A stretch of DNA of 64,000 nucleotides, taken from contig JAHYIO010000039.1 of the NCBI GenBank assembly GCA_020543525.1, positions 248,001 through 312,000 of the forward strand, read 5' to 3'. Positions within the stretch are counted from its first letter, which is position 1. Each line of letters starts with the position of its first letter. A model generated the notes under the pieces. The model was not told where the DNA came from, did not search any database, and was given only the letters and a program-made list of their open reading frames with translations. Of this stretch, positions 23,707 through 64,000 are shown piece by piece. Position numbers and translations under genes: made by a program. The DNA is from Coriolopsis trogii (Eukaryota > Basidiomycota > Agaricomycetes > Polyporales > Polyporaceae).

Positions 23707-25672
23707 ATGGCACCCAGGCCAAAGAACGGGAAGGGGGGGAAACGGACAGAAGCTCACGACACCTTGCACAAGTCAAAGAAGGTACGCTCACCGCCTAATT
23801 TGCTCTCTTAACCAGAATGTGGGCCAACTGACCGGGTCACTTTTGTACGTTTGGTTAGTACTTGGTCGTCGAGCAGCAGGACTTCGAAGCTCATCTTGCG
23901 CAAAATTTGGGATTTGCATTCCAGAACCGCGGGTCGGAGTCCGCATTGTATGGTGTCTATAACCATATCATATCGAGCATTAGCAGCACGATCACGCATC
24001 CCGACTTCCCGCACGTCACGATCTCCCACACACCCCAGTCTGTCCTCGGCCCGACGGACACACCAGTCGATCGGAATGGGAACCCAGTCACGAAGGATTC
24101 GATCTTCAACGAGCAGCTACCCGACTTTGTCCGTACCTTCATCAAGGCGAGCGAGGAAAAGGACCAAGACGGAAACCGCCGTTACGAGACACTCCCAGTC
24201 GATCTGTGGGAGATTAAGCCTCTGGATACCAACGAGGACTGGGACACAGAAGAGGCCCACCTGGCTGCAGCAAAGATCATGGAGGGCGCGATCGAGCAAA
24301 CGTGGAAGCAGGCGATGGCGGCCTTCGCTCACAACCCTGGCTGGCAGCAGATCCACGTGCTCCTCATCGTAGGCGTTTACTTCTCCCAGTTCAAGTGGAT
24401 GAGGCCGGAAGGGGAGATCAAACGGCCACTCGACGATCCCCCACATGTAACCAAGGTCTTGTCAGGACCGGAGTTGGCGACCCTGCGAAAGCAGTACGAT
24501 GACAAGATCGCAGAGTACCAGAACAGGCCTCTTCCCGAGATTGTGTACTTCAACATGCCCGTCTTCGAATTCGCTCGTGGTGGCGAGGAGCGATATCAAG
24601 CCTCCCTCTCCCCTGAGTTTCGCTACGCAATGAGACTCCCTTTGTCTCAGCAGCAGTATCGCGACTGTCAGTACCAGCGGACCTGGATGTCCTCACCTGC
24701 GAAAAAACCGACGCGTTATTCGAGCGCTAATGATAAGGTAAGGTTCTGAATATGTTGCGTGTACGCTACCTGCTCATTGCCAACAATCAGGACCGTGCGG
24801 AAAGAGCGGTAATACGCGCCATTCGTAACAATCACGGTAAGCGGTTGGTTGAGCAGCGAGACAAGGGCTGGGCAATCGGAGACGAGCCTTCACCGTCAGT
24901 GTCGTCAGCGCACAATACCAGCTTTGACTCATGGGGTGGGTCGAATGCGGACGTTGAGGAACTGAAGAGAGCCGCCCTGGCGACCCCCCTTGCAGTGAGG
25001 ACTCGATTTGCAGTGAGGACTCAGTCGGGCCAGGTGCCCGCTAGGATGCTTACTCAATCGAGTCCGGAGCCTGCTCCTGGTCTACCTGCCCTAGGGAATC
25101 TAGCATGCTCCCGGTCTCGTGAGGTAAGAGAACTTTTCCCAAGTCCTCCATGCAAGGGACAACATCTCATCGAGCATCAGCACCGCATCCAGGCAATCGA
25201 CTTCGAGAGACATGACGAGGAGGAGTATGATACCCCGCTATCCTCGGATGAATCTCAGGCTGATAGCGTGGAGGGAGAGGTCCTCGCTGACAGTCGCTAC
25301 CACGTCTTGAACCACCCCGGAAACAATCGTGGTAAGGTGAACATGCACAACGAGGAAGACGAGAACTTCTTTGTTGACACGGCCTTCGAAGAGCGGGTCA
25401 ACAACCGCGACAAAGGCTCAAGGAACCACGCACCCGCCAGAAACCTGCCTACCTCACCCCAGTACTCATCGGACGAAGACCGCAATGTGATCGATGACCA
25501 TGTCGCCTCTCCGGAGACCAGCCTTGGGGATATCGACATGCACTACGATGCGGACAGCGAGGATCTTGAAAACGTCCGGCATATCCTCTCTGATCAGGCA
25601 GGAACCCACCCACGGATGCTGTCGAAGGACACGAAGAGCCGGAAGAAGACGTTGAAGCATCGCAAGGCTTAG
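23707..25672 (+). CDS. Family A protein, copy A1 (PD-(D/E)XK-like core)
   Basis: Not a family I can name. Exons 23707-23781, 23859-24737 and 24791-25672 join in phase 0 to 611 residues. Exon 1 is a short basic leader (MAPRPKNGKGGKR). Exon 2 is the conserved domain (~residues 26-318): D114 in LPDFVRTF, then E143 and K145 in DLWEIKP, a spacing and strand context like the D...ExK of PD-(D/E)XK nucleases, followed by a helix (IEQTWKQAMAAF) and a hydrophobic strand (IHVLLIVGVYFSQFKW). Exon 3 is long, acidic and low-complexity, with EERHDEEEYDTPLSSDES-type stretches and a basic end (KDTKSRKKTLKHRKA). Followed 459 bases later by B1 in the same direction. Enzyme activity is inferred from pattern only; basic ends suggest nucleic-acid contact or nuclear import. 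Confidence 0.8.
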
Positions 25673-26037
25673 TGTCTGCAAGCAGGTGAGCATTCTAATT
25701 ATTCTTTTGATACGTACAGAGAGATGAACTGAATGGCAGTTGATAGAGCCTCATGTGATGCAGCAACATCCGTAGACTCGACTGTGGGATGATATGAACA
25801 GCACACAACTTGTAACTATGCAGCGTGGATTCAGTATGCGCCTGTACTACAGGTAATATGTATGTACCTTATGAAAGCTCAAAATTATGGTCTATGCATA
25901 CGAGTCTTCATCCGTGTATTGTGGATCCGCGGGTCGATTTGTCGAAGCACCAACCAGGCAGGACGCAAGATAGGCGCCCAATCGTGAACATATCTTCGGC
26001 GCCTGCGGAGAACGAAACGCGTCCATCTTCAACCAAC

Positions 26038-26072
26038 GTTCGACTGCACCTTGTCTCGAACCACGATTCACA
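26038..26072 (+). promoter_or_regulatory. Conserved B-gene upstream element (B1)
   Basis: A ~35-base element ending 59 bases before the B1 ATG; core GTTCGACT...TTGTCTC...ACCACGATTCA. A TATAA-like stretch (TTATAACA) follows near 26099. Confidence 0.55.
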
Positions 26073-26130
26073 TCCCTCAGCCATCGTCCTCTGCCCTCTT
26101 ATAACACCTCAGCCCACCAACGCTGCTCTC

Positions 26131-26937
26131 ATGTCTTCATCACCACCCGCTCACAACACTCGCCTCGCGACAAAACGCAAACGACTCGCTAACCAAGAGG
26201 ATGCGCCACCGCCCAAGACACGAAAGACCGTGTCGAAGCTGAGCAGCATGCTGTCAGAGGTCGACCCATCAACTGCTGAGACTGCTGAGACGAGGGTGCG
26301 TACTGTTCTCCGGCCATACCCTAGCTTGAGTGTAATGACGGAGGTCGGGCGCAGAAGCGGAAGAGGATGATGAAGCGCTTTGCCCCTAAAGACGTCCTCG
26401 ATCCCGACGAAGTCGGCAGCAGTGACACCAACCCACCCCTACGCTACTATGGTTGGCCTTTCAAGTACGACCAAGTGCTCAAGTTTGCTCAACGCCATCA
26501 CATACATTTTGATGTCTCGATGGAATCCCGTCGTCTGTACGGAGGCAAGAAGGAGATGGACTTCGCCGATCTCTCTGATAAGCACTATAGCAATCCTGAG
26601 CTGATGCAAAATCTAAAACATCTCGCACTTCTAATCCTTCTCGACAAACTCGCGGAGACGGCAGGTATCCGATTGGACTACGAGCGGGCATGCTCCCTCG
26701 ACTGGGACGGTGTCATCTACGTCTGGTCGAATTACGATGCGCAGGAGCGGTTTGGCGTCGTTCAACTGCTATCGTCTTGGAAACGAGCGGAGAGGACAAT
26801 GAGCAAGGCTATGAGCCAGATGTCGGGTCAGCGACTGAAACCGCAGTGGTGGTGGTCGAAACAGAGCGCCCGGGTAAGCCTACTCTATATTTACATTGCG
26901 GACAACTTTTCATTTCATCCCACAGCACGCATCATGA
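26131..26937 (+). CDS. Family B protein, copy B1
   Basis: Unknown family, found only beside family A here. Exons 26131-26295, 26355-26873 and 26926-26937 give 231 residues. Exon 1 is basic and Pro-containing (TKRKRLANQEDAPPPKTRK), like a bipartite nuclear signal. Exon 2 holds the conserved core: NPPLRYYGWPFKYDQ (res ~81-95), a helix FAQRHHIHF, MDFADLSDKHY, then a second half WDGVIYVWSNYDAQERF and a C-terminal KPQWWWSKQ. The last exon encodes only His-Ala-Ser and stop. All intact B copies keep these boundaries and phases. Nearly the same as B8 at 50.5-51.3 kb. Confidence 0.8.
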
Positions 26938-27094
26938 CCCAGCATAGTCGTCTTACATGTCTCTGGGAGCGGCACTGGCCGCTCTCATGTCGTTCACCTC
27001 GTATTGATGATGTATAGCAATGTATAGTATACAATTTTCGGTTCTCTGATCTGCACGAAATGTTCGATTGTCACATCTACTTGGATACACGTTC

Positions 27095-29714: not shown

Positions 29715-30536
29715 ATGTCGTCGATGCGAACTTGCACTGCACGCGCCTCCGCGACTCGGACGCGCAGAAGACTGGCTAACCAGGACTCGGAGGACATGCC
29801 ACTTCCACGCAAGGTCCACAATGTTGTGAAGCAACAGGAAACTGCACTTGCGGCAAGACTTTCGACGGCTACGGATGTAAATACGAAGGTAATCACTGTG
29901 CTGTAAGACTGCTCCCGATCCTAGAACTAATGATTTGCTTAGAAACGGAAGAGGTCGGCCTCGCTCCAGGTTGAAGACCCCGTGGATAGCATCGGTCCGG
30001 AAGACATCGGCGACAGCGGCAGGAACCCCCCTCTACGCTACTATGGGTGGCCGTTCAAGTACGACCAAGTGCTCGAATACGCCAAGCGTCACCACCTTCG
30101 CTTCCATGTCGCCACGCAGGCTCGCACGTCGTTCGAGGGCCAGGAGGAGATGGCCTTCGCCGACCTTCCTGAACTCTACTACAGCGACCCCAAGCTTTTA
30201 AGAACAGCGCAGGAGCTCGCTGCGTCCGTTGTATGCACCAGGCTTGCGAATTTGGCAGATCTGAGGCTCGATATTGGCGCTCTGCTCTCCGAGGACTTTG
30301 ACGGCATCCTGTACGTCTGGGACAACTACACCATGAATCTACGCTGCGACGTGGCCGAGTATACGACGAGCTCGTGGGACAATAGGCTGAGGATACTGGG
30401 CGAGGCGATGCAAGATATGACAGGACGACCATCGAAGCTGCAATGGTGGTATTCGTGGAAGAACTGGGTGAGCGGCCTGCGTGCTCTCAGTGTTTTTGCA
30501 CAATCTGACCTGTGTAACCAGCGTTCGAGAACATGA
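29715..30536 (+). CDS. Family B protein, copy B2
   Basis: Exons 29715-29888, 29943-30467 and 30522-30536, 237 residues. Exon 1 is a divergent basic leader (RATRTRRRLANQD-like) with the LANQ motif shared by all B copies. Exon 2 starts KRKRSASLQ and carries DPVDSIGPEDIG, PPLRYYGWPFKYDQVLEYAKRHHLRFHV, EMAFADLPELYYSDPKLL, LDIGALLSEDFDGILYVWDNY and QWWYSWKNW. Last exon: Arg-Ser-Arg-Thr-stop. Differs from B5 at few positions. Precedes A2 by about 1 kb, the same order as B5-A3. Confidence 0.8.
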
Positions 30537-31552: not shown

Positions 31553-33505
31553 ATGCCAATAATGGAGAATCAGGATACTGTTAGTGCTTGCAAGATTATG
31601 CACGACTCGAAAATGGTACGTTCACCACTCGCTACCCGCATAACCAGGACCTGACCGGACTCTGGTTATGCGCGTATGGCTGGTTAGCACGTCGTCATCG
31701 ACCAGGCGACCTTCGAGGCTGAGCTCTCCAGCAACATTGGCTTTGCATACGAGCGTCGCAAGTATGAGTGGCCGCTGTACGGGGTGTACGACCACATCAT
31801 CTCCACTCTGTGCAGAACCATCAAGCATCCCGACTTCCCCAAAGTCACAATCTCCCACATCCCTCAAGCTGTGCTCGGCCAGGTAGAGGCTCTAGTCGAT
31901 GAGAACGGTAACCGAGTCACAAAGGACAGTATCTTTCATGAACAGATACCTGACTTTGTCCGTACGTTCGTGAAGGCTGTCGATGCAGAGGACAATGGCA
32001 ATGGTGTAGGGAGCGAAAAGGGCAATGGCGGACGCACCTTCCAGACACTGCCCATCGATCTCTGGGAGATAAAGCCTCTGGATACCGAGGGGCGCTGGGA
32101 CACTGAAGAGGCCCGCAACGCGGCAAAAGAATTCATGGAAGAGTCGATTGAGCAGACGTGGAGACAAGCCATGGCCGCATTTGCGCACAACCCCGACTGG
32201 CAGCAAATCCACGTGCTCCTGATCGTTGGTGTCTACTTCTCTCAATTCAAGTGGACGCGACCCGAGGGCGACATCAAACGCCCCCTCCCCGACCAGCCTC
32301 CACCTATGACTGGGCCAATGTCGTACGAGGAAGCAGAGGCACTGCGCCAATGGTATAAGGACAAGATTGCGGAGCTTGAGAGTCGATCCTACCCAGAGGT
32401 TGAATTCTTCGCCGAACCCGTATTCGATTTCGCCCAGGGTAACGGGAAAGGCTATGAGGCGTCGCTGTCTGCACAGTTTCGTTGTGCCGTAGAGCGTCCC
32501 CTGTCTGAACATTATCCTGCCCGTGGCCAACAACCGAGCTGGATGTCCCCGGGACCGGCGAAGGCACCAATGCCTGGAGGAGACTTTCTGGTGAGTGTCT
32601 GCGCCTCAATGTACATTATTTCACATCACTAACAGGAGAGCTAGATACGTGGGCGAGAAGCAGTGGAAGTGGCTCTCCGTGGGGGGATCGAAACGTACCG
32701 GGAGAATGCTGAGACAGGATGGAAGTTCCGTCTATCGACACCTGACCCAAAGGGGTCAAACCATGACGATCCCAAAGGAACTAGCACAGAGTCCCCTGAC
32801 TCCACAGCTACCACCACTTCCAGTCCTGACAATTCTGCTCCATCGACACCGTACAGACCGTCCTACAGTGCGTTCAAAGGGCGCTGGAAGGACGTTGCCC
32901 CGAATTCGCCAGTCGCAAAGCAGACTCGATTGTCCCGCAACCGACCTCTCTTACCTGGAATAAACCTTCGTATGACCACCCGGAAAAGAGTCAACGGCGC
33001 ATTGTCAGGCATAGCAAACACTGCCACTTCATCCACAACGAGCCCTCCCCGTAAACGGCGATGCACGTTGGTTGTGGCCGCTCCTGCTCATGGTGCCAAC
33101 GGGTCACAAGTGGCTAGACCAAGTGGTGTCTCCGCCTCCAGTGGTCGCATTCGTATTCCCGGGGGCCGTATGAACAGACGCATACCCTCGATTGCACTCA
33201 ATGGTGTCGAACAAAGGGAAGGCTTGGAGGACCCCGAGCCTGGGCCAACCGTCGACAGGCCAGCCTCTCCCAACGATTCCACGGGCGGAGGTGAGACCGG
33301 CGCACTCGGTCAACATGCGAGCTCTAGCCACACCACTGTTCGAGGTTTGGAGAAACTGCCTGTGATTGAGGAAGAAGAGCTAGCGCAGTACGTTCACACC
33401 CCTGACGACGAAGTACACGACGAAGCAGAGTGTTTCGATGATGATGATGAGATCGCCGATGCAGGAGAGCGCGGATGGGATGCGGAGCTGGAAGGTCGAG
33501 AGTAG
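31553..33505 (+). CDS. Family A protein, copy A2 (PD-(D/E)XK-like core)
   Basis: Exons 31553-31615, 31688-32590 and 32645-33505, 608 residues. Exon 1 (MPIMENQDTVSACK) differs wholly from the A1 leader. The core keeps D110 (IPDFVRTF) and E148/K150 (DLWEIKP), with a ~12-residue Gly/Asn/Asp-rich insertion between them relative to A1, then IEQTWRQAMAAFAHN and IHVLLIVGVYFSQFKW. Exon 3 is disordered-looking, has a basic nuclear-type cluster SPPRKRRC at about residues 455-462 and an acidic end (FDDDDEIADAGE). B3 follows 411 bases downstream. Family function unknown. Confidence 0.8.
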
Positions 33506-33915: not shown

Positions 33916-34729
33916 ATGTCCTCGTCGCATCCGTGCACCGCTCGTTCCTCGGCCAAGCGCAAAAGACTCGCTAACCAGGACGACGCACCACCTCCCCGCA
34001 AGGTCCAAAGGACTGTGGCGAAGCGGGAGAACCCACCTACAATCCAGTCAGCCACCGGTACGACCTCTCAGAGCAAGGTATGTCACTAGATTGCGCTCTC
34101 GTGCTCCCGCTGTATGGGAATCACCAACGGCCTGTCCAGAAATGCAAGAGATCGGCCAAGACTTTGCTAGATCCCGTGGATAGCATCTTTCCAGAGGATA
34201 TGGGCGGCGACGGCACGAAACCGCCCTTGCGATATTATGGGTGTCCGTTCAAGTACGAACACGTCCTCGAGTACGCCAAACGTCATCACCTCCGTTTCCG
34301 CGTGATCGAGCGGTCACGCCACTTGTTCGGGGGCAAGGAGGAGGTGGACTTCGCCGACCTTTCCGACGAGCACTATAGTGATCCTGTGCTCATGGACAAC
34401 GTTCTCAGCCTTGCTGCGCTTGTTGTGAGCGTCCGTCTCTCAAAGCGGGCGGGTTTTCGGGTCGAGATTGGATACCCACTCTCCAAGGAGTTCGACGGCA
34501 TCATGTACGTTTGGAACAACTACAACATAGAGGATCGGTTCGACCTAGCCGTCTTCATGGGCACATGGGACGATGGTGTGAAGATATTGGAGGATGACAT
34601 GAAGGAGATTACAGGCCGACGTTCGAAGTTGCAATGGTGGCATTCAAGGAGAAATTGGGTAAGCAATCTGCTCTCGTTGTGCTTTCCTCCAACGCCTTAT
34701 CATCTTTCTGACAGCGCTTGAAGGGATGA
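33916..34729 (+). CDS. Family B protein, copy B3
   Basis: Exons 33916-34077, 34140-34658 and 34715-34729, 231 residues. Basic leader AKRKRLANQDDAPPPRKVQR; exon 2 with DPVDSIFPEDMG, PPLRYYGCPFKYEHVLEYAKRHH, HLFGGKEEVDFADL, IGYPLSKEFDGIMYVWNNYN and LQWWHSRRNW; last exon Arg-Leu-Lys-Gly-stop. Its 5' flank and exon 1 are almost identical to inverted B12 (63.47 kb), and exon 1 encodes the same protein there, but the second half of exon 2 differs strongly. Confidence 0.82.
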
Positions 34730-35204: not shown

Positions 35205-35760
35205 ATGATATGTATGCCTGAGCCTCAACTAGGCTACTGGCCCTCCGCAACGACGTCCGATGAAGCACTCGTCCCGCCCGTCCCTCTCCGCACAACGGCC
35301 CTCTGCCGCATCAACGTCCCTCCGTTGCGCTACCGAGCATTTGATCCAGTGCTGCATCGTCTCCGGGGCGTTCTCATGTCCTCACGTATCGTGTGCGGGA
35401 CCTTGAGACACCGCTTCTCTCACAGTGCGTCACGAACGTCCTGGAGGACGAACATTCCGGGAGGCACCGGTGAGGGAGAACACGGCACTCAGAGGATGTC
35501 CCGGCACTCCAATGGAATTCTATGCGGCTCCGGCGGGATCTGTTCTTTGCAGTTGCGTTCTTTGCAGTTGCTGGCGGTGCGGAGACCATCTCTCGTTTGT
35601 CGTCGGCTAATACGTCATCGACCCCGCCTAGCGGTGCTGCTCTGTCGGTTCTATCAAGCATACTATGGCGGGGTCTGCTAGCGGACACCCTCATGATATT
35701 GCGAAGTCCACGCCCACAGTCTCCCAATATAAATGCCGAAGACTGATGCACCAATGTCCC
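35205..35760 (+). pseudogene. Relic of coiled-coil gene C (N-terminal part)
   Basis: Fragments in changing frames match gene C (46751): VPPLRYRAFDP, RGVLMSS, then RLRRDLFFAV and a Ser-rich piece (ISRLSSANTSSTP). Multiple frameshifts and missing parts. Same position relative to B3 as the relic at 45100-45640 has to B6. Confidence 0.65.
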
Positions 35761-35938: not shown

Positions 35939-36744
35939 ATGTCTTCGTGCTTTAGGCGCTCCTCAGGAAAGCGCAAGCGGATAATTAACTAGGAGAGCGG
36001 TGCCGACGCACTACGTCCGCTCGAGGTTTAGAAGACCGTGACGAAGCATATCAGCAGACTAGAAGCAGAGCACCCAACGGTCCTGCACGCCCGAAGTAAT
36101 GTATATGTATACTCTGCCCCTGTATGGCTACGCTTGACTCGACTAACGAACAGTTCATATAGAAGCGGAAGAGGTCGTCCTCACTTCAGGACCGCGTCGA
36201 TAACAATGGTCACAAAGACCTCGGCGACAGCGGCACCACTCCTCCAGCACGCTTCTTCGGGTGGCCATTCAAATAGTCCCAAGTGCTCGAATACGCCAAG
36301 CGTCATCATCTCCGCTTCCAAGTTACCGAACAGCCACGCAATTCGTTCGGGGGCAAGGAGATGGACTATACCTACCTTCCAGAACGTTACAGCGCATACC
36401 CCAAGCTGTTACGGAATGCGCAGAAGCTCCCTGCGATTGTGGTATGCAACGCGCTTGCAGATATGGCATACCTTCAGCTCGATATCGGCTATCTGCTCTC
36501 GCGGACTTCGACGGCATCATGTACGACAACTGCAACATAGACGAGCGGTCCGACATCGCAGAGTATTATGGCAAGTGGGATGATGGGGTGGAGATATTAG
36601 GCGAGGTGATGAATGAGATGACCGGACACCAACCGGCGCCGCAGTGGTGGCGTTCACGGTTCCACTGGGTGAGAGTACTCTGCGTTCTTCGAGCCCGTCT
36701 GCAAAGTCTCAGCGATCATTTGACAGCGCGTGAGGGACGATTGA
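35939..36744 (+). pseudogene. Family B relic, copy B4
   Basis: Exon layout of family B is kept (basic leader GKRKR, GT donor near 36105, acceptor near 36162, last exon at 36727) but the frame is broken: in-frame TAG in exon 1 after KRIIN and another after KTV-preceding sequence, a TAG in exon 2 right after GWPFK, and a frameshift at the LLS(K/E)DFDG motif near 36505. Recognisable: SQVLEYAKRHHLRFQV, EMDYTYLPERY, QWWRSRFHW. Sister of B7. Confidence 0.75.
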
Positions 36745-38400: not shown

Positions 38401-39391
38401 CTACCTCTTGTCGCTCTGTCCCCCGATCCCAAACCTCTGGAACCGCCTCCCCATCGGTATCCTCGTCGACCGCGCCGAAGAAGTCCCAGCCCCCCAGTCG
38501 CGTTCCTCACCGACGTTGACCTGAGCTCCCACACTCTTAGCTCGGCCTCTCCCTCCCGCGCTCTCCTTCACATCACCATATTCAAGCACCGCCTCCATGT
38601 CGGACCCAGGTACGCCGCCAACGTTTGTCGTCTCCTGCAACGCAGGCCTCGACATCGCGATCGACGCCGACAGCCGCTTGATTGCCTTCAACCCCGGCAT
38701 CCGCACCGGCAGGTGCGACGACTTCTTCGAACCCGCGTTCACGTTCTCGGGCGGACTCGTCGTCGTCGTCGTCGTCGCCGCACGCTCCCGCTGCCTCCTT
38801 CCAGCGGGGCTGGCGCTCCGGCTCGCACTTGGGCTCGCGTTCGGGCTCGCGCGGAACGAGGTCGACGAAAAGTCGTTGTGGAGCACAAGCACGAGGTCCT
38901 CGTCCGACCCCTGCCCAAACTCGACCAGCGCGCGCGGAAGCGAGTCGGGCGCGGGTGTCAGCAGCGCGGGTGCTTGCAGGCGCGTGCCTATCTCCGGTGG
39001 CTCTTCTTCGTCCACGCACTGGTCTTCGGGGTCTGGAGGGGGCGCGACTAGGACGATGGGCGCGGGTCCCGCGGAGCACGTCGTGAGGGCGTCGGATGGA
39101 CTGGGGTGGATGGACACGCGAGGGACGCCCATAACCCTCGCATTCCTGCGCCGGGATTTGGCGGACGCCTGGGTAGATTGGGAGAGGAGGAAGAGCTCTG
39201 GACGGAGCCACGGATATGCGCGCGCAGTAGAAGTCGAGTTCAACATTGGCAGGACCATGGACGACGATGTAGCAGGTAGTGACGTCTCCGGAGTAATTGG
39301 TATTTCCTCCACAGTGCAAGCCCCAAGCAATAGCATCGATGTCGGACTGGGTGGCCGAGGTCCACACGGAGAGAGGCTCGGAAGTGGTGGG
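38401..39391 (-). pseudogene. Truncated inverted copy of gene C (3' half)
   Basis: Minus strand reads the C-terminal half of gene C (CTVEEIPITP, ALVEFGQGSDEDLVLVLHNDF, MPGLKAIKRLSASIAMSRPAL, MGRRFQRFGIGGQSDKR, stop at 38401-38403). The 5' half is missing: homology ends at 39391, where B5 flank begins. A ~90-base deletion relative to C lies near 39180. Confidence 0.8.
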
Positions 39392-39564: not shown

Positions 39565-40384
39565 ATGTCGTCGATGCGAACTTGCGCCGCACGCACCTCC
39601 GCGACTCGCACGCGCAGAAGACTGGCTAACCAGGACTCGGAGGACATACCACTTCCACGCAAGGTCCACAATGTTGTGAAGCAACAGGAAACTGCACTTG
39701 CGGCAAGACTGTCGACGGCTACGGATGTGAATACGAAGGTAATGACTGTGCTGTAAGACTGCTCCCGATCCTAGAACTGATGATTTGCTTAGAAACGGAA
39801 GAGGTCGGCCTCGCTCCAGGTTGAAGACCCCGTGGATAGCATCGGTCCGGAAGACATCGGCGACAGCGGCAGGAACCCCCCTCTACGCTACTATGGGTGG
39901 CCGTTCAAGTACGACCAAGTGCTCGAATACGCCAAGCGTCACCACCTCCGCTTCCATGCCGTCGAGCAAGCTCGCACGTCGTTCGAGGGCCAGGAGGAGA
40001 TGGCCTTCGCCGACCTTCCTGAACGCTACTACAGCGACCCGAAGCTTCTACGAATTGCGCAGGAGCTCGCTGCGTCCGTTGTATGCACCAGGCTTGCAAA
40101 TTTGGCAGATCTGAGGCTCGATATTGGCGCTCTGCTCTCCGAGGACTTTGACGGCATCCTGTACGTCTGGGACAACTACACCATAAATCTACGCTGCGAC
40201 GTGGCCGAGTATACGACGAGCTCGTGGGACAATAGGCTGAGGATACTGGGCGAGGCGATGCAAGAAATGACAGGACGACCATCGAAGCTGCAATGGTGGT
40301 ATTCGTGGAAGAACTGGGTGAGCGACCTGTATGTTTTCTGCGCTTGGCGGAATCTAACCTATGTCACAGCGCTCAAGAAACTGA
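39565..40384 (+). CDS. Family B protein, copy B5
   Basis: Exons 39565-39738, 39793-40317 and 40370-40384, 237 residues. Nearly the same as B2: leader RTSATRTRRRLANQD, core PPLRYYGWPFKYDQVLEYAKRHH, DIGALLSEDFDGILYVWDNY, QWWYSWKNW. It differs from B2 mainly at FHAVEQA / FHVATQA and PERYYSDPKLLRIA. Last exon Arg-Ser-Arg-Asn-stop. Upstream of A3 by 1.0 kb. Confidence 0.8.
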
Positions 40385-45099: not shown

Positions 45100-45640
45100 A
45101 TCAATGATAGGTATGCCTGAGTTTGAACTACACGACCTGTCCTCCGCAACGATATCCAATGAAGCACTCGTCCTGCCCGTTCCTCCCCGCACAACGGCCC
45201 TCTGCCGCGTCAACGTCCCTCCGTTGAGCTACCGAGCATTTGATCCAATGCCGCATCGTCTCCGCGGCGTTCTCATGTCCTCGCGGGACGTGTACGGGAC
45301 CTTGAGATACCGCTTCTCGAACAGCGCCACGCGAACGCCCTCGAGGACGAACGTTGCGGGAGGCACAGGAGAGTGAGAACACGGCACTCAGAGGATGTTC
45401 TAGCACTCTAAGGGAAGGTTATGCGGCTTCGGCGGGATTCGTTCTTTGCGGTCGCTGACGGTGCGGAGTCTGTCTCTCGTTCGTCGTCGGCTACTACGTC
45501 CGTTGGTCCACTCGCATCCACCCCAACCTCTATCTTCGTCTTGACTTCGGACTCTCGCGGTCGCGTGCGATTCACTGATGAGGGCGCGGTGTTGACGAAT
45601 GTGATCAAATGCGGTCATGTTGCCGAACGCAACTTGAGGA
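45100..45640 (+). pseudogene. Relic of coiled-coil gene C (N-terminal part)
   Basis: Pieces VPPLSYRAFDP, RGVLMSSRD, MRLRRDSFFAV and VGPLASTPTSIFVLTSDSRG correspond to gene C residues ~95-105, 110-120, 175-185 and ~200-220, in different frames with gaps. Confidence 0.65.
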
Positions 45641-46396
45641 GAGCGCCGATGCACCACTGCGTCCGCTCGAGGTTCAGGAGACCGTGACGAAGCAGGTCAG
45701 CAAATCAGAAGCAGACAAAGGTCCTGCACGCCCGAAGTAATGTACTTGAATACTCTACCTCTATGGCTACGTTTGATTCGACTAACGAATAGTTCATGTA
45801 GAAATGAAAGAGGCCGCCCTCATTCCAGGACCCGGGCCCGTCGATGATATTCGTCGCAAAGACCTCGGCGACAGCGGCACCAATCATCCAGTACGCTTCT
45901 ATGGGTGGCCGTTAAAGTACGCGCAAGTGCTTCGGTACGCCAAGTGTCATCACCTCCGCTTACAAGTTGCCGAACAGTCACGCGAGTTGTGTGGGGCGAG
46001 GAGATGGACATTGCTGACCATCCCTAATGTTACAGCCGTGACCCCAAGCTCATAAAAAAACACGCAAAATCTCGCTGCGATGTTGATTTACAACACGCTT
46101 GCAGATATGGCATGCAGGCTTCAGCTCGATATTGGCTATCTGCTATCGAAGGACTTCGAAGGCATCCTGTACGTCTGGGACAATTACAACATAGACGAGC
46201 GGTTTGACATCACAGAGTATTATGACAAGTGGGACCATGGAGTGGAGATATTAGACGAGGTGATGAATGAGATGACCGGACACCAACCGACGCCGCAGTG
46301 GTGGTGTTCACAATTCCACTGGGTGAGTACTCTGCGTTCGTCGACCCCGTCTGCAAAGTCTCAATGTTCGCTTGACAGCGCGTGAGGGAAGATTGA
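45641..46396 (+). pseudogene. Family B relic, copy B7
   Basis: Sister of B4. Exon 1 is only traceable near 45641-45740. In the exon 2 region the acceptor TGTAG is followed by AAATGAAAG, i.e. a stop where KRKR stood; later FYGWPLKYAQVLRYAKCHHLRL is legible, a frameshift follows near 45995, and the second half (LDIGYLLSKDFEGILYVWDNYNIDERFD, PQWWCSQFHW) is again open. Last exon at 46379-46396. Confidence 0.7.
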
Positions 46397-46750
46397 CCTC
46401 ATTGTCGCACTTTCCTTGCTTTTTAATGGGATGATTGATAGGTTCATCCTGTATATCGTGTGGCATGATGCAGTATAACACGCTTTCCCCCGCGCTTTCC
46501 GTTCGATGTGCGAGAGCCATACTGACTTGTATGATTCTAGACGTGGCAGACCCCATCTCGCTCGCTGTTCGCTATACCGGCTCAAATGATCGTGACGTGG
46601 TATCCACGGCATCGATCGCAGTGCGGGTTCTTCACTGGCCGTGCTCGTGTTCGATTCGTGTCGTGCACGCGGCCTGCCTCATCTTGCACTCGAACCACCA
46701 CATCCCTAGTCCACACTCACATCCTACTCACACTCCTTGCGACAACCGTC
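46397..46750. other. 5' region of gene C
   Basis: The frame of gene C stays open back to 46586, but the first ATG is at 46751. No other feature seen. Confidence 0.5.
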
Positions 46751-50480: not shown

Positions 50481-51287
50481 TCATGATGCGCGCTGTGGGA
50501 TGAAATGAGAAGTTGTCCGCAATGTAGATATAGAATAGGCTTACCCGGGCGCTCTGTTTCGACCACCACCACTGCGGTTTCAGTCGCTGACCCGACATCT
50601 GGCTCATCGCCTTGCTCATTGTCCTCTCCGCTCGTTCCCAAGACGAGAGCAGCTCGACGACGTCAAATCGTTCTTCCGCGTCGTAATTCGACCACACGTA
50701 GATGACGCCGTCCCAATCGAGGGAGCATGCCCGCACGAAGTCCAACCGAATGCCTGCCGTTCGTGCGAGTTTACTGACCACATATAGAAGTGCGAGGTAT
50801 TGTAAGTTCTCCAAGAGATCAGGATCGCTGTAGTGTTCATCGGAGAGGTCGGCGAAATCCATCTCCTCCTTGTCCCCGAAGAGACTGCGCACTTTCTTCG
50901 AGACATCGAAGTGTATATGATGACGTTGAGCGAACTTGAGCACTTGCTCATACTTGAAGGGCCAACCATAGTAGCGTAGGGGCGGGTTGGTGTCACTGCT
51001 GCCGACTTCGTCGGGATCGAGAACGTCTTTGGGGGCAAAACGTTTCATCGTCCTCTTCCGCTTCTGCACCGCACCTCCGTCATTACACTCAAGCTAGGAT
51101 ATGGCCGGAGAACAGTACGCACCCTCGTCTCAGCAGTCTCAGCAGGTGATGGGTCGACCTCTGACAGCATGCTGCTCAGCTTCGACACGGTCTTTCGTGT
51201 CTTGGGCGGTGGCGCATCCTCTTGGTTAGCGAGTCGTTTGCGTTTTGTCGCGAGGCGAGTGTTGTGAGCGGGTGGTGATGAAGACAT
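50481..51287 (-). CDS. Family B protein, copy B8
   Basis: Exons 51287-51123, 51063-50545 and 50492-50481, 231 residues. Same exon sizes as B1. Leader TKRKRLANQEDAPPPKTRK; core NPPLRYYGWPFKYEQVLKFAQRHHIHFDV, KEEMDFADLSDEHYSDPDLL, WDGVIYVWSNYDAEERFDVVELLSSW, KPQWWWSKQ; last exon Arg-Ala-Ser-stop. Lies downstream of A4 (472 bases), matching A1-B1. Confidence 0.82.
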
Positions 51288-51759: not shown

Positions 51760-53706
51760 CTAAGCCTTGCGATGCTGCAACGTCTTCTTTCGGCTCTTCG
51801 TGTCCTTCAACAGCATCCGTGGGTGGGTTCCTGCCTGATCAGAGAGGATATGCCGGACGTCTCCGAGGCCCTCGCTGTCTTCATCGTCATGCGCGTGGAA
51901 AGCGCGAAAGTTGGTGTCCTGAGAGTCGACATGGTCATCGATCGCACTGCGGTCTTCATCCATTGGATCATGGAGCGAGGTAGGCAGGTTTCTGCCAAGT
52001 GCGTGGTACTCGGAGCCTCCGTCGCGATTGTTGATCCTGTCATCGGAGGCCATGTCAAAAATGTTCTCCTCTGCCTCATTGTGCATGCCGGCATCACGAA
52101 GGCTGTTGTCGCGGTCGAGGTAGCGACTGTTGACGATGGCCTCTCCCTTCGCGCCACCAGCCAGAGATTCATCCGAGGATAGCGGGGTGTCGTACTCTTC
52201 CTCGTCATGTCTCTCAAAGTCGATTGCCTGGATGGGTCGCTGACGCTCGATGAGGCGTTGTGGCTTGCCTGCAGGGCTTGGGAACATCTCTGCAGCAAAC
52301 GAGGAGCCGGGATCCTCAACGCGAGATGGGGGTGGCGCCGGGTTCCGCCGGGAAGCAGGTATACCAGGAACATGCTTCGGGCCCGATTGAATGGGCACCT
52401 GAACACGCACCCGGCCGAATCGAGTCCTCACTGCAAGGGGGGTCTTCAAGGCTGCCCTCTTCAGACCCTCTACGTATGCATTCGACCCACCCCATGACTC
52501 GTCAGAGCTATCATCATGATTTGACGACACTGACGGTGAGGGCTTGTCTCCGATTGCCCAGCCCTTGTCTCGCTCTTCAATCAACCCTTCAGCATGTCTT
52601 CCACTGATGGCTTGTATGACCGCTTTTTCTTCAATGACCTGAATGATGACAATCAGCATGCACGCGAGACATTCATAACCTTACCGTTACACGCGAATTA
52701 CGCGTCGGTTTCTCTGCTGGTGAGGACATCCAGGTCCGCTGATACTGGCAATCTGGATACTGCTGAGACACAGGGAGTCTCATTGCGTAGCAGAACTCTG
52801 GCGAAAGGGAGGCCTGAAATCGCTCTTCGCCACCACGATTGAAATCGAAGACGGGCGCATTGAAGTACTCGATCTCAGGAAGAGGCCTGTTCTGGTACTC
52901 CGCGATCTTGTCGTCGTACTGCTTTCGGAGGCGTTCCAACTCCGGTCCTGACAAGACCGTAGTCACATGTGGGGGTTTGTTGAGTGGCCGTTTGATCTCC
53001 TCGTCAGGCCTCATCCACTTGAACTGGGAGAAGTATACGCCTACGATGAGGAGCACGTGGATCTGCTGCCAGCCCGGGTTGTGAGCGAAGGCCGCCATCG
53101 CCTGCTTCCACGTTTGCTCGATCGCGCCCTTCATGATCTCCTTCGCAACCAGACGGGAATCCTCTGTGTCCCAGTTCTCGTCGGTATCCAGAGGCTTTAT
53201 CTCCCACAGATCGATTGGGAGTGTCTCGTAACGGCGGTATCCGTCTTGGTCTTTTTCCTCGCTCGCCTTGATGAAGGTACGGACAAAGTCGGGCAGCTGC
53301 TCGTTAAAGATCTCATCCTTCGTGACTGGGTTCCCGTTCTGATCGACTGGCATGTCCGTCGCGCCGAGGACAGCCTGGGGTGTGTGGGAGACGGTGACAT
53401 GCGGGAAGTCAGGATGCATGATGGTGTTGCTAACGCTGGATATAATATGGTTATAGACACCATACAATGCGGACTCCGACCCGCGATTTTGGAACGCGAA
53501 TCCCAGCTTCTGTGCCAGGTGAGCTTCAAAGTGCTTCTGCTCGACGATCAAATGCTAACCAACCGTACAATAGTGACGAGGTCAGTTGGCCCACATTCTG
53601 GTTAAGAGAGCAAATTAGGCGGTGAGCGTACCTTCTCCGACTTGTGCAGGGTGTCGTGAGCTGCTGTCCGCTTTTCCCCCTTCCCTTTCTTTGTCCTGGG
53701 TGCCAT
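51760..53706 (-). CDS. Family A protein, copy A4 (PD-(D/E)XK-like core)
   Basis: Exons 53706-53632, 53554-52685 and 52638-51760 give 607 residues. Leader MAPRTKKGKGEKR. Core with D114 (LPDFVRTF), E143 and K145 (DLWEIKP), then IEQTWKQAMAAF and IHVLLIVGVYFSQFKW; very close to A1 in exon 2. Exon 3 shares only blocks with A1 (RDKGWAIGD, FERHDEEEYDTPLSSDES, ILSDQAGTHPRML, KSRKKTLQHRKA), the rest is diverged. Followed by B8. Confidence 0.8.
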
Positions 53707-54196
53707 TATTATGACTGGATGAGGAGGATTGGTGGATGATGCACGGGAGTGGTGGACAAGGGTCAAGAGGCGACGGACGTGCATGGGCGCCCGTGCAGTG
53801 CCTTTTGTCCCTCATGGCGTTCGCATTTACCTAACCAAGCGCAGCAATGGTCATAATCCCGGCCTCAAAATCTATCATAATCAAGGTGCTTTATCTACGC
53901 ATGATTTCTCAATATCTCTGCTCCTGGAACGAGCTTCAAGACGGTGATTCAATATTTCAGAGACACCCGAGTATACATCGACTCAACACAGCCAAGACTT
54001 GGGCAGACGTTGAACGTTGGTTGGAGACTAACTTTTAGCACATGTGTTGTAAGTAGGTAGATAGCGTACGATGGTCAGAGCAACAACATGAGAATTACCG
54101 AGAAGCGTTCCAGTGGTATAACATCCTGCCCCCGGCCCACCGCTATAATATGTCCTGTGGGGAGAAGTAAGATGGACCTACTAAGTAAGCCTCCTC
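53707..54196. other. Intergenic, border of the right arm
   Basis: Homology with the left arm stops at about 53840; nothing coding seen. Confidence 0.5.
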
Positions 54197-54925
54197 TAAC
54201 CATCACCACTGCGGTTTCAACCGCTCGCCCGACATCTCTCTCATCGCCTTGTTTAAAGTCGTCGAGGCGCAGACCCACGACGACAACAGCCGCACAACCT
54301 TAAACCAGGCTCGCGTCGTAATTAGACCAGACGTAAATTACGCCGTCCCATTCAGGAAAGCATGCCCACCCAGTCTCTAGTCGTATGCCCGCCGTCCGTG
54401 CGAGTTTAACGACAACGTATAGAAGTGCGAGGTGTTGTAGATTCTTCAGGAGCTCAGCGTTGCCGTAATGCTTGTCGGAGAGATCGAAGAAGTCCATCTC
54501 CTCCTTGTTTCCGAAGAGACTGCGCGATTTCTCCATGACATCGAAGTGTATGTGATGGTGCTGAGCAAACTTGACTCCTTGGTCGTACTTGAACGGCCAG
54601 CCATAGTAGCGTAGAGGAGGATTCTTGCCACTGCTGCCGAGGTCATTAGGACCGAGATTGTCTTGGGGGGCAAAGCGGTTCATCAACTTCCTCTTCTGCT
54701 TCTGTTCGGGACCTCCGTGAACTCGCTGTAACCAGTCAGAAGCGGACATGAGCGACGTACCTGCAGCTCCACAGTCTCGACAGTCAACGCGTTGGTGTTT
54801 GTCAGCATGCTACGTAGCCTCGACTCCGAGTCGACTTTGGGTACATTGGGCGGCGGTGCTTCCGCGGCTTCCTTAGCTTGGTTAGTGCATTCGCCGCATC
54901 GTTTGCGTTTCGCCGCGAGGCCCCT
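54197..54925 (-). pseudogene. Family B relic, copy B9
   Basis: B1/B8-like. Exon 1 trace about 54925-54775 (AKRKRCGE... APPPNVPK) ending in a GTACGT donor but without an ATG in frame. Exon 2 (from 54703) is open: NPPLRYYGWPFKYDQGVKFAQHHHIHFDV, KEEMDFFDLSDKHYGN, WDGVIYVWSNYDA, then frameshift and stop at 54300-54302; the remaining C-terminal piece (GERLKPQW) is in another frame with a TGA after QW. Confidence 0.7.
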
Positions 54926-54948: not shown

Positions 54949-55472
54949 ATGGAGAGCGAGATGAAAGCTCGAGCCCCCGAAGACGAGCTCGATCCGGCGC
55001 AGCTCGCGAGCAGCAGCACGCAGCCCGAGCTCCGTCTCTATGGTTGGCCTTTCACGTATGAATACATGCTTGAGTACGCGCGGCGCCACCACCTCAGCTT
55101 TCCCGTCGCGAAGGGTGCACGGAAGTTGTTCGGGGGCAAGAAGGAGTTCAAGTTTGAAGACCTCACGGAGGAGCACTACAGCAACTCGTAACTCATAAAT
55201 AGCCTTTACTTCGCCGCTGCGTTCATGACACTTGGCGAGCTCGAAAAAGTAACCAGCCTACAGCTGGAAATGGGTAGACCCTACTCGCTCGATTGGGACG
55301 GCATCATTTACATGTGGTTGAACTACAACATGGACAACCGGTGGTATGTGGCCGATAAACTCCAGCTGCTCGACACAGGCTGTGGAGACCCTGGATCGGG
55401 CAATGAATGAGGCCTGAGGGCGTGCATGGCAAGGGATCGAGGCTCTAGTGGTGGTACACGTTTGATAACGAT
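54949..55472 (+). pseudogene. Family B relic, copy B10
   Basis: Head to head with B9 (about 25 bases apart). Opens MESEMKARAPEDELDPAQL, then PELRLYGWPFTYEYMLEYARRHHLSFPV and KKEFKFEDLTEEHYSNS, where an in-frame TAA (55189-55191) stops it. After the stop the same frame continues LDWDGIIYMWLNYNMDNRW, and a frameshift near 55380 leads to VETLDRAMNEA. The exon 1 leader is missing. The most divergent B copy in the window. Confidence 0.7.
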
Positions 55473-58289: not shown

Positions 58290-58960
58290 GCTATTCACTT
58301 TGCATGGGACGTAGCCACCCTCGTCTCGCCTGTGTATGGCGCAAACGAAAGATCGCGGCACACGGGTACGCGGCACCGTTGATGACAGGTTTGTGAGTTC
58401 CGACGGAAACCACTGCATGAGCTCGACGAAGTGCGGCGCACGGTCGCGCTTGGCAACGACAACAACATTCGCACTCGTCGCATCGCGGCCTCGGGAACAA
58501 AGCACGCACGACCGCGTGAGAAGTCGAGATGGAGTCAGAGGTCGGGATCGATATGAGTGGGCCAACAGATGTAGCAGCAGACAGCGAGCACTGCGCACCA
58601 GCGGTTCGCGGTTTCCCTCTCCGCGGCGGCGCGCACTCCTTCCGGCGCCAACTCGGATGTGGGCGAACTGCAAATGCGTCGCATTCTTCGAGTTGTGGTG
58701 TCTGAAGGTTGTGCTTGCGCTCCATGAGTACGGCGAGGACACCGTTGAAGATCGGGTCAGACGCTCGGATGTGCGACGTAAGCGGCTGAGGGCTGTCAGA
58801 CGGAGGGGGATGGGTAGGACGAGTGCGTTATTGGACACTGTTGCGGAGGACGGGTTGCGTAGTTCAAGTTCAGGCATACATGGCATGGATGTAGGGTACG
58901 TGTCAGGATTGGCGTCGTTGGTAGAGGCTGGCCTCCGAGTCAAGTTGAGGCGCCAATGGC
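58290..58960 (-). pseudogene. Relic of coiled-coil gene C
   Basis: Minus strand pieces MPELELRNPSSAT, a Pro/Leu-rich stretch, LQTPQLEECDAFAV and, near 58430, RRAHAVVSVGTHKPVI match C (CIPELELHIPPSST, LLEECNANA, FVELMVSVGAHKPVI) across frames. Confidence 0.6.
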
Positions 58961-59089
58961 GCCGGAAGAGTTTCTGAGCATGGGGGAAGGGGAGTGACGT
59001 TGGTTGAAGAGATGGATGACATCAAAGCATCTGTAGCGTGCAAGATGGCACAGGCAGCGTGTGCGCAACGCGAATCGAACAAGGGCGCG

Positions 59090-59446: not shown

Positions 59447-60247
59447 TCATCCTTTCAAACGCTGTCAAAGAAACGATGAGACGTTGGAAGAACACGACAG
59501 AAGCTAATTGCTCACCCAGTTCTCCCATGAATGCCACCATTGCAGCTTCGAAGGTTTGCCTCCGATCTCCGTCATGGCCTCCTCGAATACCTTCACACCA
59601 TCGTCCCATGTGTCCAGGACGTCGGCCAGGTCAAACTGCTCTTCTAGGTTGTAGTTGTCCCAGACGTACATGATGCCATCGAACTCCTTGGAGAGCGGGT
59701 AGCCGATATCGACCAGGAAACCCGCCCGCTGTGAGAGACGGATGCGCACAACACGCGCGGCAAGTCTCGGAATACTTTTGATCAGTAGACGGTGACTGTG
59801 ATGCTCCTCCGTAAGGTCGGCAAAGTCCATCTGCTCCTTGCTCCCAAACAAATGGCGAAACCGCTTATCGACACGGAAGCAGAGGTGGTGGCGTTTGGCG
59901 TACTCGAGTACTTGTTCGTACTTGAACGGACACCCATAGAACCGCAAGGGAGGTTTGTTGCCGTTCAGGCCGATGTCTTCCGGACCGATGCTATCCACGG
60001 GGTCTAGCAAAGTCTTGACCGCTTTCTTCGCAGGCAGTCGGTCATTCCCATACAGCGGCGCGCGAGAGCAGAGTCTAGTAACCTACCGTGTTCGGAGATG
60101 TCGAACTGGTGGCTGACTGAGTTGTAGGTGTGTTCTCCTGCTTCGCCACATTCCTCTGGACCTTACACGAGGTGGTGTGTCGTCCTGGTTAGCAGGTCTT
60201 TTGCGCTTCACTGAGGAGCGAGCGGTACAGGGATGCGTTGATGACAT
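59447..60247 (-). pseudogene. Family B copy B11 with one-base deletion in exon 1
   Basis: Exons by homology: 60247-60087, 60025-59516 and 59461-59447. Exon 1 starts MSSTHPCTARSSVKRKRPANQDDTPPR, then has 161 rather than 162 bases: a base is missing where B6 has CCCCGCAAGG, shifting the frame so that the leader no longer joins exon 2. Exon 2 is fully open (DPVDSIGPEDIGLNGNKPP, FYGCPFKYEQVLEYAKRHH, IGYPLSKEFDGIMYVWDNYN, LQWWHSWENW), also lacking nine bases at its start. Last exon Arg-Leu-Lys-Gly-stop. Could still be made from a downstream ATG. Confidence 0.7.
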
Positions 60248-60310
60248 GACAAGTAAGTTGATAAGTAAGCGGTGGGTGTGGGGAGGACTGGGTGTGGCCG
60301 CTGGAGTAGG

Positions 60311-60342: not shown

Positions 60343-60399
60343 CTCGTTAGGCGGCCGCTCACAATCTCCGCAGACGCCCGAGATGCAGATTGACTTGGG

Positions 60400-60740: not shown

Positions 60741-61899
60741 GGGGCGGGAAGGCAGTCGGACATCAGGCCCCGCGCGCGGGCGGACTATCCTGCCAGTCTC
60801 CCCCGGCGTTGTCGTTGGTCTGAGCGTCCCGACTCCCCATCAACTCTCTTGCGACACTTGCAACCAATGCTGCAGGTACAATGTCTGCTAACGCTCTCAT
60901 TGGGTCTGCGTGAGCGGAGTCGTAGGTCTCTCAATACTTGCCGGTATCCGACTTTTGTGTGAACGATAAACACCATGTATACAAACACACAATCAGATAT
61001 ACGAGTGGATCATCCATCCAAGATGCCTCGAGATGACAGAGCTCAACGCTCACCGGATGCTCACGATATCCGTCGACGCCCTCTCCTTCGGCTCCTCCGA
61101 GTCCTCTGCCGGCTTTGGCAGCTCACACAACACGTATCTCCTTCTGGCTTCTCCGGTTGCGGTACTCTCGAACCTCCCATTCGCCAACTGATCAGCACCT
61201 GCGAGTCGTCCGCTCCGCCAATAGTCCCCGGATGGCTGACAAATAGTCGCATTTGTCGGGCACAGGTGCGTCTTCATAAACCCCGTTTCTGCGACGCCAA
61301 GTCTGCGCTGCTCTGCAACGCCTCCGGCCCCTCACGAACTTGGATATCGCGGGGAACAGGTCATGGTCGTTCACGCGGTAGCCCATGAGCGAAAACGCAA
61401 AGTGAAGGAGAAACGCGAGCGCCTTCGCGAACTCCCGGAACGGCGTCGACGCCGTGCATTCGAGGATGCACTCCAGCGGGAGGTTCTCGAGCTGGTGTCC
61501 GTCCAAGAGCCTAGTGACTCAGGCTGTTGTATTGTAGATGGAGCTTTTGCTCGTGAAGGGCAGGACTCTGAATGAAAAGAATGATATGCCCAGCGGTATC
61601 AATAGCATCTAGAGCGAGACAACCTCTGGGCGAAGGCGCGCGAGTCCGCGGGGAAGATGTGCTGGAGCTCATAGCACCGCGCCTGTTGTCGTCTTTCTGA
61701 TCAACCTCCGCCTGACGCGAGCAGAGCTGGGTTCGACGTGTTCAATGGGCATACGCAACCGCCTTCACTGCTGCAATGGCATAACGCCCTGTCCAACGTG
61801 AGGCGGATCACATGTTATGATGTTCGCGCGCCAGCTCTGCGTACCCGTGCTCCTCAACTGTCGTTGAGCACATTGTCATGGCACCACTCTGGAGTTGCT
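60741..61899. other. Unassigned, probably decayed sequence
   Basis: Isolated protein-like pieces only: plus strand from 61033 (MTELNAHRMLTISVDALSFG, 53 residues to a stop) and minus strand near 61500 (LENLPLECILECTASTPFRE). No consistent gene model or domain. Confidence 0.35.
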
Positions 61900-62270
61900 C
61901 GCCGTCCGGGTGTCGTTCCAGCAGGTACGCGGCACGTTGATGACCTGGTTTGTGAGCTCCGATGGGAAGCATGAGCTCGACGGAGCGCCGCGGGCAACCT
62001 AGACATCGAGATGGAGTTAGAGGTGAAGATCGATGTGGGTGCCGACAGACGTAGCAGCCGACGACGAGCGAGACATAGACTGCGCACCACCAGTGAGGGC
62101 GAACTCGCCGATCGGCTCACAGTGACGGGGAATCGTCTCTGAGCGTCGCATTCTCCCTCTCCGCTGGCTGCCGCGCCGCGCGCTCGTCTCCTAGAGCCGG
62201 CTCGAAATGTGGGTGAACTGCGGGTGTGTCGCGTTCTTCGAGTCGTGCTGGTTGAAGATTGTGCCTGCGT
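61900..62270 (-). pseudogene. Relic of coiled-coil gene C
   Basis: Minus strand near 61970 reads VELMLPIGAHKP, the counterpart of C VELMVSVGAHKP, with further C-like Ser-rich sequence (SAPTSIFTSNSIS) upstream. Frames broken. Confidence 0.6.
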
Positions 62271-62658
62271 TCCGTTAAGACGACGGGGACGCCATGATGA
62301 AGAATCTGTTTTCGCTGTCATGTCTGAAATTGCGGTTGAAGCTAAGCCGCGGCAGTCAAATGTTCCATTGCAGTGAACGAATAAGACAGGATGCAACTCA
62401 ACTTGACCGGACGCCATGAATGCGCATGCTCATTGTGAGGATCTGTACACCTGACGGAGACTCAGCCAGACCTGTCAATCAGCGAGTTGGGCCCATGAGT
62501 ACTCAACATAAGCAAATGAAGGCACGTCAGTCACGTCACCGATACATGGTTCGAAAGACAGCCATCGCACAAAGATGGAAGACGCAGAGAAAAGTGATCC
62601 GATGACGCTACACAATATAATACATGACACTCGAGCGAAAAGACGAGACAGACGGAAA

Positions 62659-63471
62659 TCATCCTTTCAAACGCTGTAAGAAAATGGTGAGACGTTGGAA
62701 GAAGGCGCGACAAAAGCTGTTTGCTTACCCAGTTCTTCCATGAATGCCACCATTGCAACTTCGAACATCGACCTGTAATCTCCTTCATTGTATCCTCTAA
62801 TATCTTTGCACCGTCGTCCCAAGTGCCCATGAAGTCGGCCAGGCCAAACCGTTCCTCTATGTTGTAGTTGTCCCAGACGTACATAAGGCCGTCAAAATCC
62901 TTGGAGAGTGGGTAGGCGATATCGACCAGGAAACCCGCCTGCTTTGAGAGATGGGTGCTGACAACAAGCGCAGCGAGTTTGAATACGCTCTTCATGAGCC
63001 TAGGATCACTATGGTGCTCGTCGGAAAGGTCGGCAAAGTCCATCTCTTCCTTCCCTCCGAACAAGTGGCGTGACCGCTCGATGACGCGGAAACGGAGGTG
63101 ATGACGTTTGGCGTACTCGAGTACGTGTTCGTATTTAAACGGACACCCATAATATCGCAAGGGCGGTTTCGTGCCGTCACCGCCGATGTCCTCCGGAGAG
63201 ATGCTATCCACGGGATCTAGCAAAGTCTTGACCGATCTCTTGCATTTCTGGACAGGCGGTTGGTGATTCCCATACAGCGGGAGCACGAGAGCGCAATCTA
63301 GTGACATACCTTGCTCTGAGAGGTCGTACCGGTGGCTGACTGGATTGTAGGTGGGTTCTCCCGCTTCGCCACAGTCCTTTGGACCTTGCGGGGAGGTGGT
63401 GCGTCGTCCTGGTTAGCGAGTCTTTTGCGCTTGGCCGAGGAACGAGCGGTGCACGGATGCGACGATGACAT
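62659..63471 (-). CDS. Family B protein, copy B12
   Basis: Exons 63471-63310, 63247-62729 and 62673-62659, 231 residues. Leader protein identical to B3. Core PPLRYYGCPFKYEHVLEYAKRHH, HLFGGKEEMDFADL, IAYPLSKDFDGLMYVWDNYN, LQWWHSWKNW; last exon Arg-Leu-Lys-Gly-stop. The A gene of this module (A5) lies just upstream at the window edge, so the A-B order is kept. Confidence 0.82.
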
Positions 63472-63532
63472 GATATTGAAGTCGACGGATAAGGATTGAT
63501 ATAGAGAAGACTGGGTGTGGTCGCTGCAGAGC

Positions 63533-63567
63533 GTTGAATCGTGGTTTGAGACAAACTCGAGTCGAAC
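63533..63567 (-). promoter_or_regulatory. Conserved B-gene upstream element (B12)
   Basis: Minus-strand copy, identical to the B3 element by eye, ending 62 bases before the ATG. Confidence 0.6.
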
Positions 63568-63880
63568 TGTGTTTCGCTGTTTGGGCGACGCGTTTCGATC
63601 TCCGCAAGCGCCCAAGATGCATATCTGATTGAGCGCCTGCCTGCCGCGCACCGCTGTTCGTGGCTCGCAGCTTGTCCAAGAACCATTCTCCATACGCGTC
63701 TCTTGAACATACATGACATAGATGAGCATACTGGATGAAAATCAAACTACGTTACGAACATGCAGTTGAGTATCTCACCCTCTCTAACGCATAAACATGG
63801 GTGCATAATTGACATGAGAACATACTTCTCCTCGTACGGTCGGGCTACGCTGCTTGATCTCAACGCGTTCCATCATCGAC

Positions 63881-64000
63881 TTACTCTCGACCTTCCAGCT
63901 TCGCATCCCATCCGCCCTCTCCTGCATCGGCGATCTCATCATCATCATCGTAACACTCTGCTTCGTCGTGTACTTCGTCGTCAGGGGTGTGAACGTACTG
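63881..64000 (-). CDS. Family A protein, copy A5, 3' end only (cut by window edge)
   Basis: The last 39 codons of an A gene: QYVHTPDDEVHDEAEC, DDDDEIADAGE, KLEGRE and TAA at 63881-63883. Nearly the same as the end of A2; the intergenic part to B12 also matches that between A2 and B3. Shows that the cluster continues beyond the window. Confidence 0.8.
   Translation of the reverse strand, partial: QYVHTPDDEVHDEAECYDDDDEIADAGEGGWDAKLEGRE

Follow-up and report, generated by a model that had tools for sequence, protein, structure and literature searches.

The Spok killers of Podospora, as presented in sections of PMC6660238, exist as several homologs and carry a predicted nuclease domain that is required for killing. 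Killing and resistance reside in separate domains of one protein, one of them kinase-like. According to PMC6660238, the nuclease lysine of Spok3 is required for killing but not for resistance. In Wolbachia, the nuclease site of CinB is required for its toxicity, and the cognate CinA rescues (PMC8787490). In fission yeast, one wtf gene makes both poison and antidote, and the antidote-only wtf18-2 suppresses a driver (PMC6283613). Here we describe a pair of adjacent genes in Coriolopsis trogii, encoding a predicted nuclease (A) and a partner protein (B), whose cluster spans ~315,000 bases of one contig (C36). The starting point was a stretch of 64,000 bases, C36:248001-312000, referred to below as the window, and the searches covered the genome of 38.8 Mb (39 contigs). 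In this genome the enzyme gene always stood next to its partner, which points to a poison-and-antidote or self-defence system without proving one.

Like Spok, the A-B module is fungal, includes a predicted nuclease domain and has several homologs. It differs from Spok in consisting of two genes, in having no kinase match and in having a partner without known relatives. The Spok arrangement of nuclease and kinase-like domains in a single protein was not found: full-length A has no Pfam match, and its nuclease core is followed only by a tail of 113-335 amino acids (aa). The parallel to Spok drawn in the first-pass annotation of the window thus holds for the nuclease domain common to both and goes no further. 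CinA-CinB differs in being bacterial and in having the antidote gene upstream of the enzyme gene, and B matches CinA in neither sequence nor fold. Higher scores were obtained for A against the nuclease domains of the type IIG restriction enzymes BpuSI and DrdV. In those enzymes the nuclease domain forms one protein with methyltransferase and specificity domains, whereas the core of A is followed by a charged tail and its partner is encoded by a gene of its own. As to a restriction-modification system, no methyltransferase match was found in A, B, a third family (C, see below) or the 20 other window frames scanned. The likeness to wtf would lie in a family with an antidote-only member; wtf drivers are not known to contain a nuclease. 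Among the open-licence papers listed by literature searches, there was no killer or nuclease-based recognition system of Agaricomycetes and no system matching this one.

The first-pass annotation had reported a repeated module of A and B within 40 kb, with five A copies and 11 B copies, five of the latter broken. The module was confirmed, as were the five A (A5 is cut by the window end) and the five broken B, but the window holds 12 B copies, and the array is larger, extending over C36 167-483 kb. Genome-wide numbers of A and B matches are lower bounds, and outside the window selected stretches of the array were read as DNA. A search with the A core gave 16 matches, 15 of them on C36 at 168-482 kb and one on C5, which amounts to at least 14 loci on C36 (a relic counts twice) plus one on C5. 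The B core gave 61 matches, 57 of them on C36 at 167-483 kb and the other four on C28, C5, C30 and at C36:646 kb. After merging of matches, ~48 B loci remain in the C36 stretch, of which 14 are broken. The earlier statement that no A is broken holds within the window; outside it, one of the 14 C36 A loci has a TAA in its core and one is a relic. All A copies in the window were modelled with the fixed structure described before, three exons with phase-0 introns and GT..AG boundaries, and B1 also has three exons.

An enzyme gene and a partner gene are adjacent at all 14 C36 A loci and at the C5 A. From A1 to A5, the distance between the A stop and the start of the same-strand downstream B is 459, 411, 438, 473 and 410 bases, in agreement with the 410-475 bases first given. 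Measured from core to core, each of the 14 C36 A loci is followed by a same-strand B at a distance of up to 2.6 kb, or up to 2.0 kb in 13 cases; with random placement of B loci a mean of 2.45 A were paired, and 14 was reached in 0 of 20000 placements. Upstream, a same-strand B occurs within 2.6 kb at 8 of the 14 loci, with its core open in five and broken in three. Those noted earlier before A2 and A3 are both intact and lie ~1.0 kb away; A4 also has an upstream B, which is broken. Thus, the claim that A is always paired with B is true for every A in this genome, but the dependence is one-way, as many B genes have no partner A.

Distances between A cores correlate with distances between their downstream B genes (r 0.775 for 13 C36 pairs, r 0.842 with C5 added; 0 of 20000 permutations each; the C36:336166 copy is included, with X at its stop, and the relic at 168.6 kb is left out). 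The C5 pair consists of an A with a 517-aa open exon, head-to-head with one B. This A is 32-33% identical to A1, its B is 23-33% identical to array B genes (longer matches), and the pair has no DNA-level similarity to the array stretches compared. The strong divergence and head-to-head orientation of this pair mean that copying of one block does not by itself explain the A-B association. The gene beside it (C5:197001-204000) resembles, by eye, a glycoside hydrolase of the polygalacturonase kind. In the clade II modules (A2, A3, A5 and C36:397 kb), upstream B genes show a mutual synonymous divergence (dS) of 0.03-0.09 versus an A dS of 0.18-0.41, and the downstream-partner B pairs listed differ by a dS of at least 0.32. 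The similarity of the upstream B genes suggests gene conversion or exchange within modules.

The annotation had called A nuclease-like, and motif and predicted fold support a PD-(D/E)XK enzyme. In a core alignment of 13 of the 15 A loci (C36:336166, which has a stop, and the 168.6 kb relic were left out), the catalytic motif P88 D89 ... D115 W117 E118 K120 (P-D…D-x-W-E-x-K) is invariant in 13 of 13. In the predicted structure, D89 lies immediately before a strand at 90-101, E118 and K120 end a strand at 107-120, and the core has the common alpha-beta core fold of the PD-(D/E)XK superfamily. These features predict that A is a PD-(D/E)XK nuclease. Its activity is putative, and it may act in the nucleus. 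The tail that follows the core is at its shortest, 113-121 aa, only in three clade III copies; it has many charged residues and turns over fast, and a search with the tail alone found 4 places. Exon 3 of A and exon 1 of B differ between copies, and the exon-2 cores of both genes align well. As in the first reading, neither family was recognised: A and B have no family above the curated cut-off in Pfam and none at all in NCBIfam or PADLOC.

The structure model of B is confident, and B matches no fold among those in PDB and no DNA-binding family above cut-off. Its N-terminus is a basic stretch of the KRKR type. The 8-mer ACCACGAT stands upstream of B in 13 of 30 stretches and upstream of A in 0 of 13; its presence before B copies may be due to descent. 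Distant matches were also seen. A weak B-like match lies at C30:1009713-1010204 (E 8.6e-4) and a weak A-like match at C20:2110991-2111353 (E 0.0096), and at C36:645867-647980 two distant B-like frames adjoin a frame that by eye is kinase-like, with no A in the 5 kb read.

Loss in these modules is one-sided. In three of them A is lost or broken and B is kept (C36:168.6 kb, C36:336.2 kb and C28:2.756 Mb). The A at 168.6 kb is a relic with several stops that has lost the ExK glutamate, and the B beside it, at 167.5 kb, is open in its core and exon 1, with an omega of 0.27 to its nearest relative. At 336.2 kb the A core has one TAA, possibly a sequencing error, and its B is open. On C28 (C28:2754001-2759000) a solitary open B was found and A is absent. 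Upstream of this B, 252 aligned columns match at 80% the region upstream of the A at C36:472.6 kb, up to the predicted ATG of that A; 19 bases beyond this match, similarity to a C36 B gene starts, 7 bases before the ATG of B, and the first intron of B is retained. The reverse case, an open A with a broken downstream B, occurs at none of the 12 C36 A copies with open cores. Broken B loci number 0 of 14 among downstream partners versus 14 of 34 among other array loci (Fisher p 0.004; 0.010 without three stop-free fragments, 0.002 if B 307525 is taken as broken). In this one genome the enzyme gene is not kept without its partner and the partner may persist alone; together with the adjacency of the two genes, this is as expected of a two-gene toxin-antidote system of the CinA-CinB type.

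Both A and B are under purifying selection. Codon models, run on 272 codons of 12 A cores and 164 codons of 32 B cores, gave an omega of 0.19 for A and 0.30 for B; the B alignment itself had 31 open cores, hand-chosen from B copies whose DNA was read. Omega exceeds 1 in no rateable stretch of A, nor of the downstream B of clade I or clade II. The A segment after ExK (DTEEA...) is fast in both clades (0.48 in clade I, 0.57 in clade II), and clade I alone has two more segments that rise to 0.70 and 0.77. In B, a long helix (core ~76-105) has an omega of 0.60-0.61 in clade II downstream copies and 0.32-0.36 in clade I; the YGW...RHH part is slower, and its second half has 0.02-0.11. The fast segments of A and B could be contact surfaces. 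In the close upstream B genes, three segments carry 8-9 replacement and zero silent changes, so that their omega is not rateable. For 13 B cores that do not immediately partner an A, pairwise omega to the nearest relative is 0.20-0.34, a value that includes the lineage of that relative; some of these genes lie a few kb from an A, and further solitary B genes, e.g., 426097, 439958 and 482282, are outside this set of 13.

We tentatively favour a reading, short of an even chance, in which A works as a nuclease in the nucleus and B is dedicated to it as a partner, most likely an antidote that restrains it. A would be a nuclear PD-(D/E)XK endonuclease with a catalytic exon-2 core and a charged, fast-changing tail; B would bind this presumably toxic enzyme and hold it in check, as antidote or immunity, so that B could be retained in a genome that lacks A, whereas A could not be retained without B. 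The module would have been amplified to 14 A and ~48 B loci in one stretch, where spare B genes may protect against an A from elsewhere in the array, another nucleus or another strain, in a role that might be drive, allorecognition or defence. That A is never seen without an open partner and B is kept alone is the pattern expected from a dangerous enzyme and its antidote. The one-sided loss is also compatible with an obligate A-B complex, its three cases are not decisive between antidote and obligate subunit, and the distance correlation alone proves little because neighbouring genes get copied together. An obligate partner fits less well because one would then expect an occasional open A with a broken B at its side. 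Rather doubtful is a bolder form, in which a nuclease toxin and an antidote of a kind not described before make up a two-gene system. The array would then be a bank of selfish or allorecognition modules, each A neutralised by its own B, and the dozens of A-less B genes would be acquired immunity.

There are four other possibilities. B could be a targeting, activating or specificity subunit of a genome-defence complex whose targets are RNA or else invading or repeated DNA, with extra B genes providing extra specificities that act with A in trans. In favour are the presence of a B at every A, the ~3:1 excess of B over A loci, the basic stretch at the start of B and its long helix, whose faster evolution relative to the YGW...RHH part would suit a recognition surface. 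However, an A that was simply useless without B should in some cases stay open although its downstream B is broken or missing (0 of 12 open C36 copies), and B resembles neither a DNA-binding family above cut-off nor a PDB fold. We also consider this account questionable. Ordinary nuclear work, e.g., DNA repair or chromatin processing, with the C36 array a lineage-specific tandem expansion without conflict, would fit the strong purifying selection on A and B and the old single-copy pair on C5. We regard it as unlikely given the size of the array, the 14 broken loci among 48 B loci, the fast turnover of the A tail and the lack of a known family above cut-off. It is improbable that the array serves somatic allorecognition in the dikaryon, with A-B combinations from different nuclei reacting at fusion and A destroying nuclei. 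The pairs are indeed multi-copy and divergent, and the genome has several STE3 receptor matches and one homeodomain (HD) match (PF02076, 18 matches, all on C4; PF05920, 1 match, on C20), as expected of an outcrossing agaricomycete; the array on C36 is nevertheless unlinked to these mating-type regions, though linkage is not required. Least probable is a mobile element encoding its own nuclease: one B on C28 carries the upstream region of an A gene, but a single stretch holds all A loci except one and 57 of the 61 B matches, the first intron is kept in the C28 copy, and no transposase family appeared among the part of the window's frames that was scanned. An HD or STE3 mating-type locus was rejected, as the array contains no homeodomain or STE3 match.

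A constrained nuclease that is always beside a partner, together with many conserved spare partners, makes a candidate that is concrete and simple to test. Should A prove toxic and B protective, the module would make nuclear conflict in dikaryons accessible at the molecular level and perhaps supply a new inhibitor fold. Otherwise, what remains is a large gene array specific to the lineage and two protein families that had no name.

Table 1. Features of the A-B array within the window (window coordinates; the ends of A2-A5 were obtained by arithmetic from exon models and genome matches).
Feature	Position	Strand	Details
A1	23707..25672	+	exons 23707-23781, 23859-24737, 24791-25672; 611 aa; exon 2 holds the nuclease core
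B1, downstream partner of A1	26131..26937	+	exons 26131-26295, 26355-26873, 26926-26937; 231 aa
B, upstream partner of A2, intact	29715..30536	+	
A2	31553..33505	+	exon 2 ~31688-32590, exon 3 32645-33505
B, downstream partner of A2, intact	33916..34729	+	
C fragment, downstream of B 33916..34729	35300..35542	+	
B, broken	36082..36659	+	
C, inverted partial copy (3' part)	38404..39339	-	no same-strand B beside
B, upstream partner of A3, intact	39565..40384	+	
A3	41388..43361	+	exon 2 ~41523-42431, exon 3 42483-43361
B, downstream partner of A3, intact	43799..44620	+	
C fragment	44994..45633	+	
B, broken	45834..46396	+	TAA in core
C, long open frame	46586..49018	+	810 aa, read without introns; no family above cut-off
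B4, downstream partner of A4, intact	50481..51287	-	
A4	51760..53706	-	
B, broken, upstream of A4	54188..54808	-	
B, broken	54958..55377	+	
C fragment, downstream of 60 kb B	58360..59009	-	
B, counted broken	59447..60247	-	core open, exon 1 out of frame
C fragment	61877..62296	-	
B5, downstream partner of A5, intact	62659..63471	-	
A5, 3' end	63881..64000	-	remainder past window, to ~C36:313.8 kb

The 810-aa open frame at 46586-49018 founds family C, which has no Pfam match above cut-off and none in NCBIfam or PADLOC. With C residues 51-338 as query (E <= 1e-5), nine matches were obtained at eight places, all inside the array, and five of the nine contain stops. At each of the eight places, a same-strand B precedes C by <1 kb (0.59 places on average at random; 8 reached in 0 of 20000). 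A search of the window with the whole of C added 58360-59009, also downstream of a B, and one exception, the inverted 3' part at 38404-39339, which has no same-strand B near. The other C copies in the window are partial or broken, leaving a single long open copy. The original full module may have been B-A-B-C, with C now mostly decayed.

Beside the leftmost A relic, at C36 ~169.5-170.4 kb, a frame that by eye resembles a clathrin adaptor mu subunit possibly marks the left edge of the array. Within the window, four BTB-domain frames (15145-22744), three of them above the Pfam cut-off, lie to the left of the A-B copies. A CDC20/Fizzy WD40 match at 28463-28789 (E 1.8e-23) is under the family cut-off and possibly represents one exon or a truncated copy, and a copper-fist DNA-binding domain match above cut-off was found at 57461-57976.

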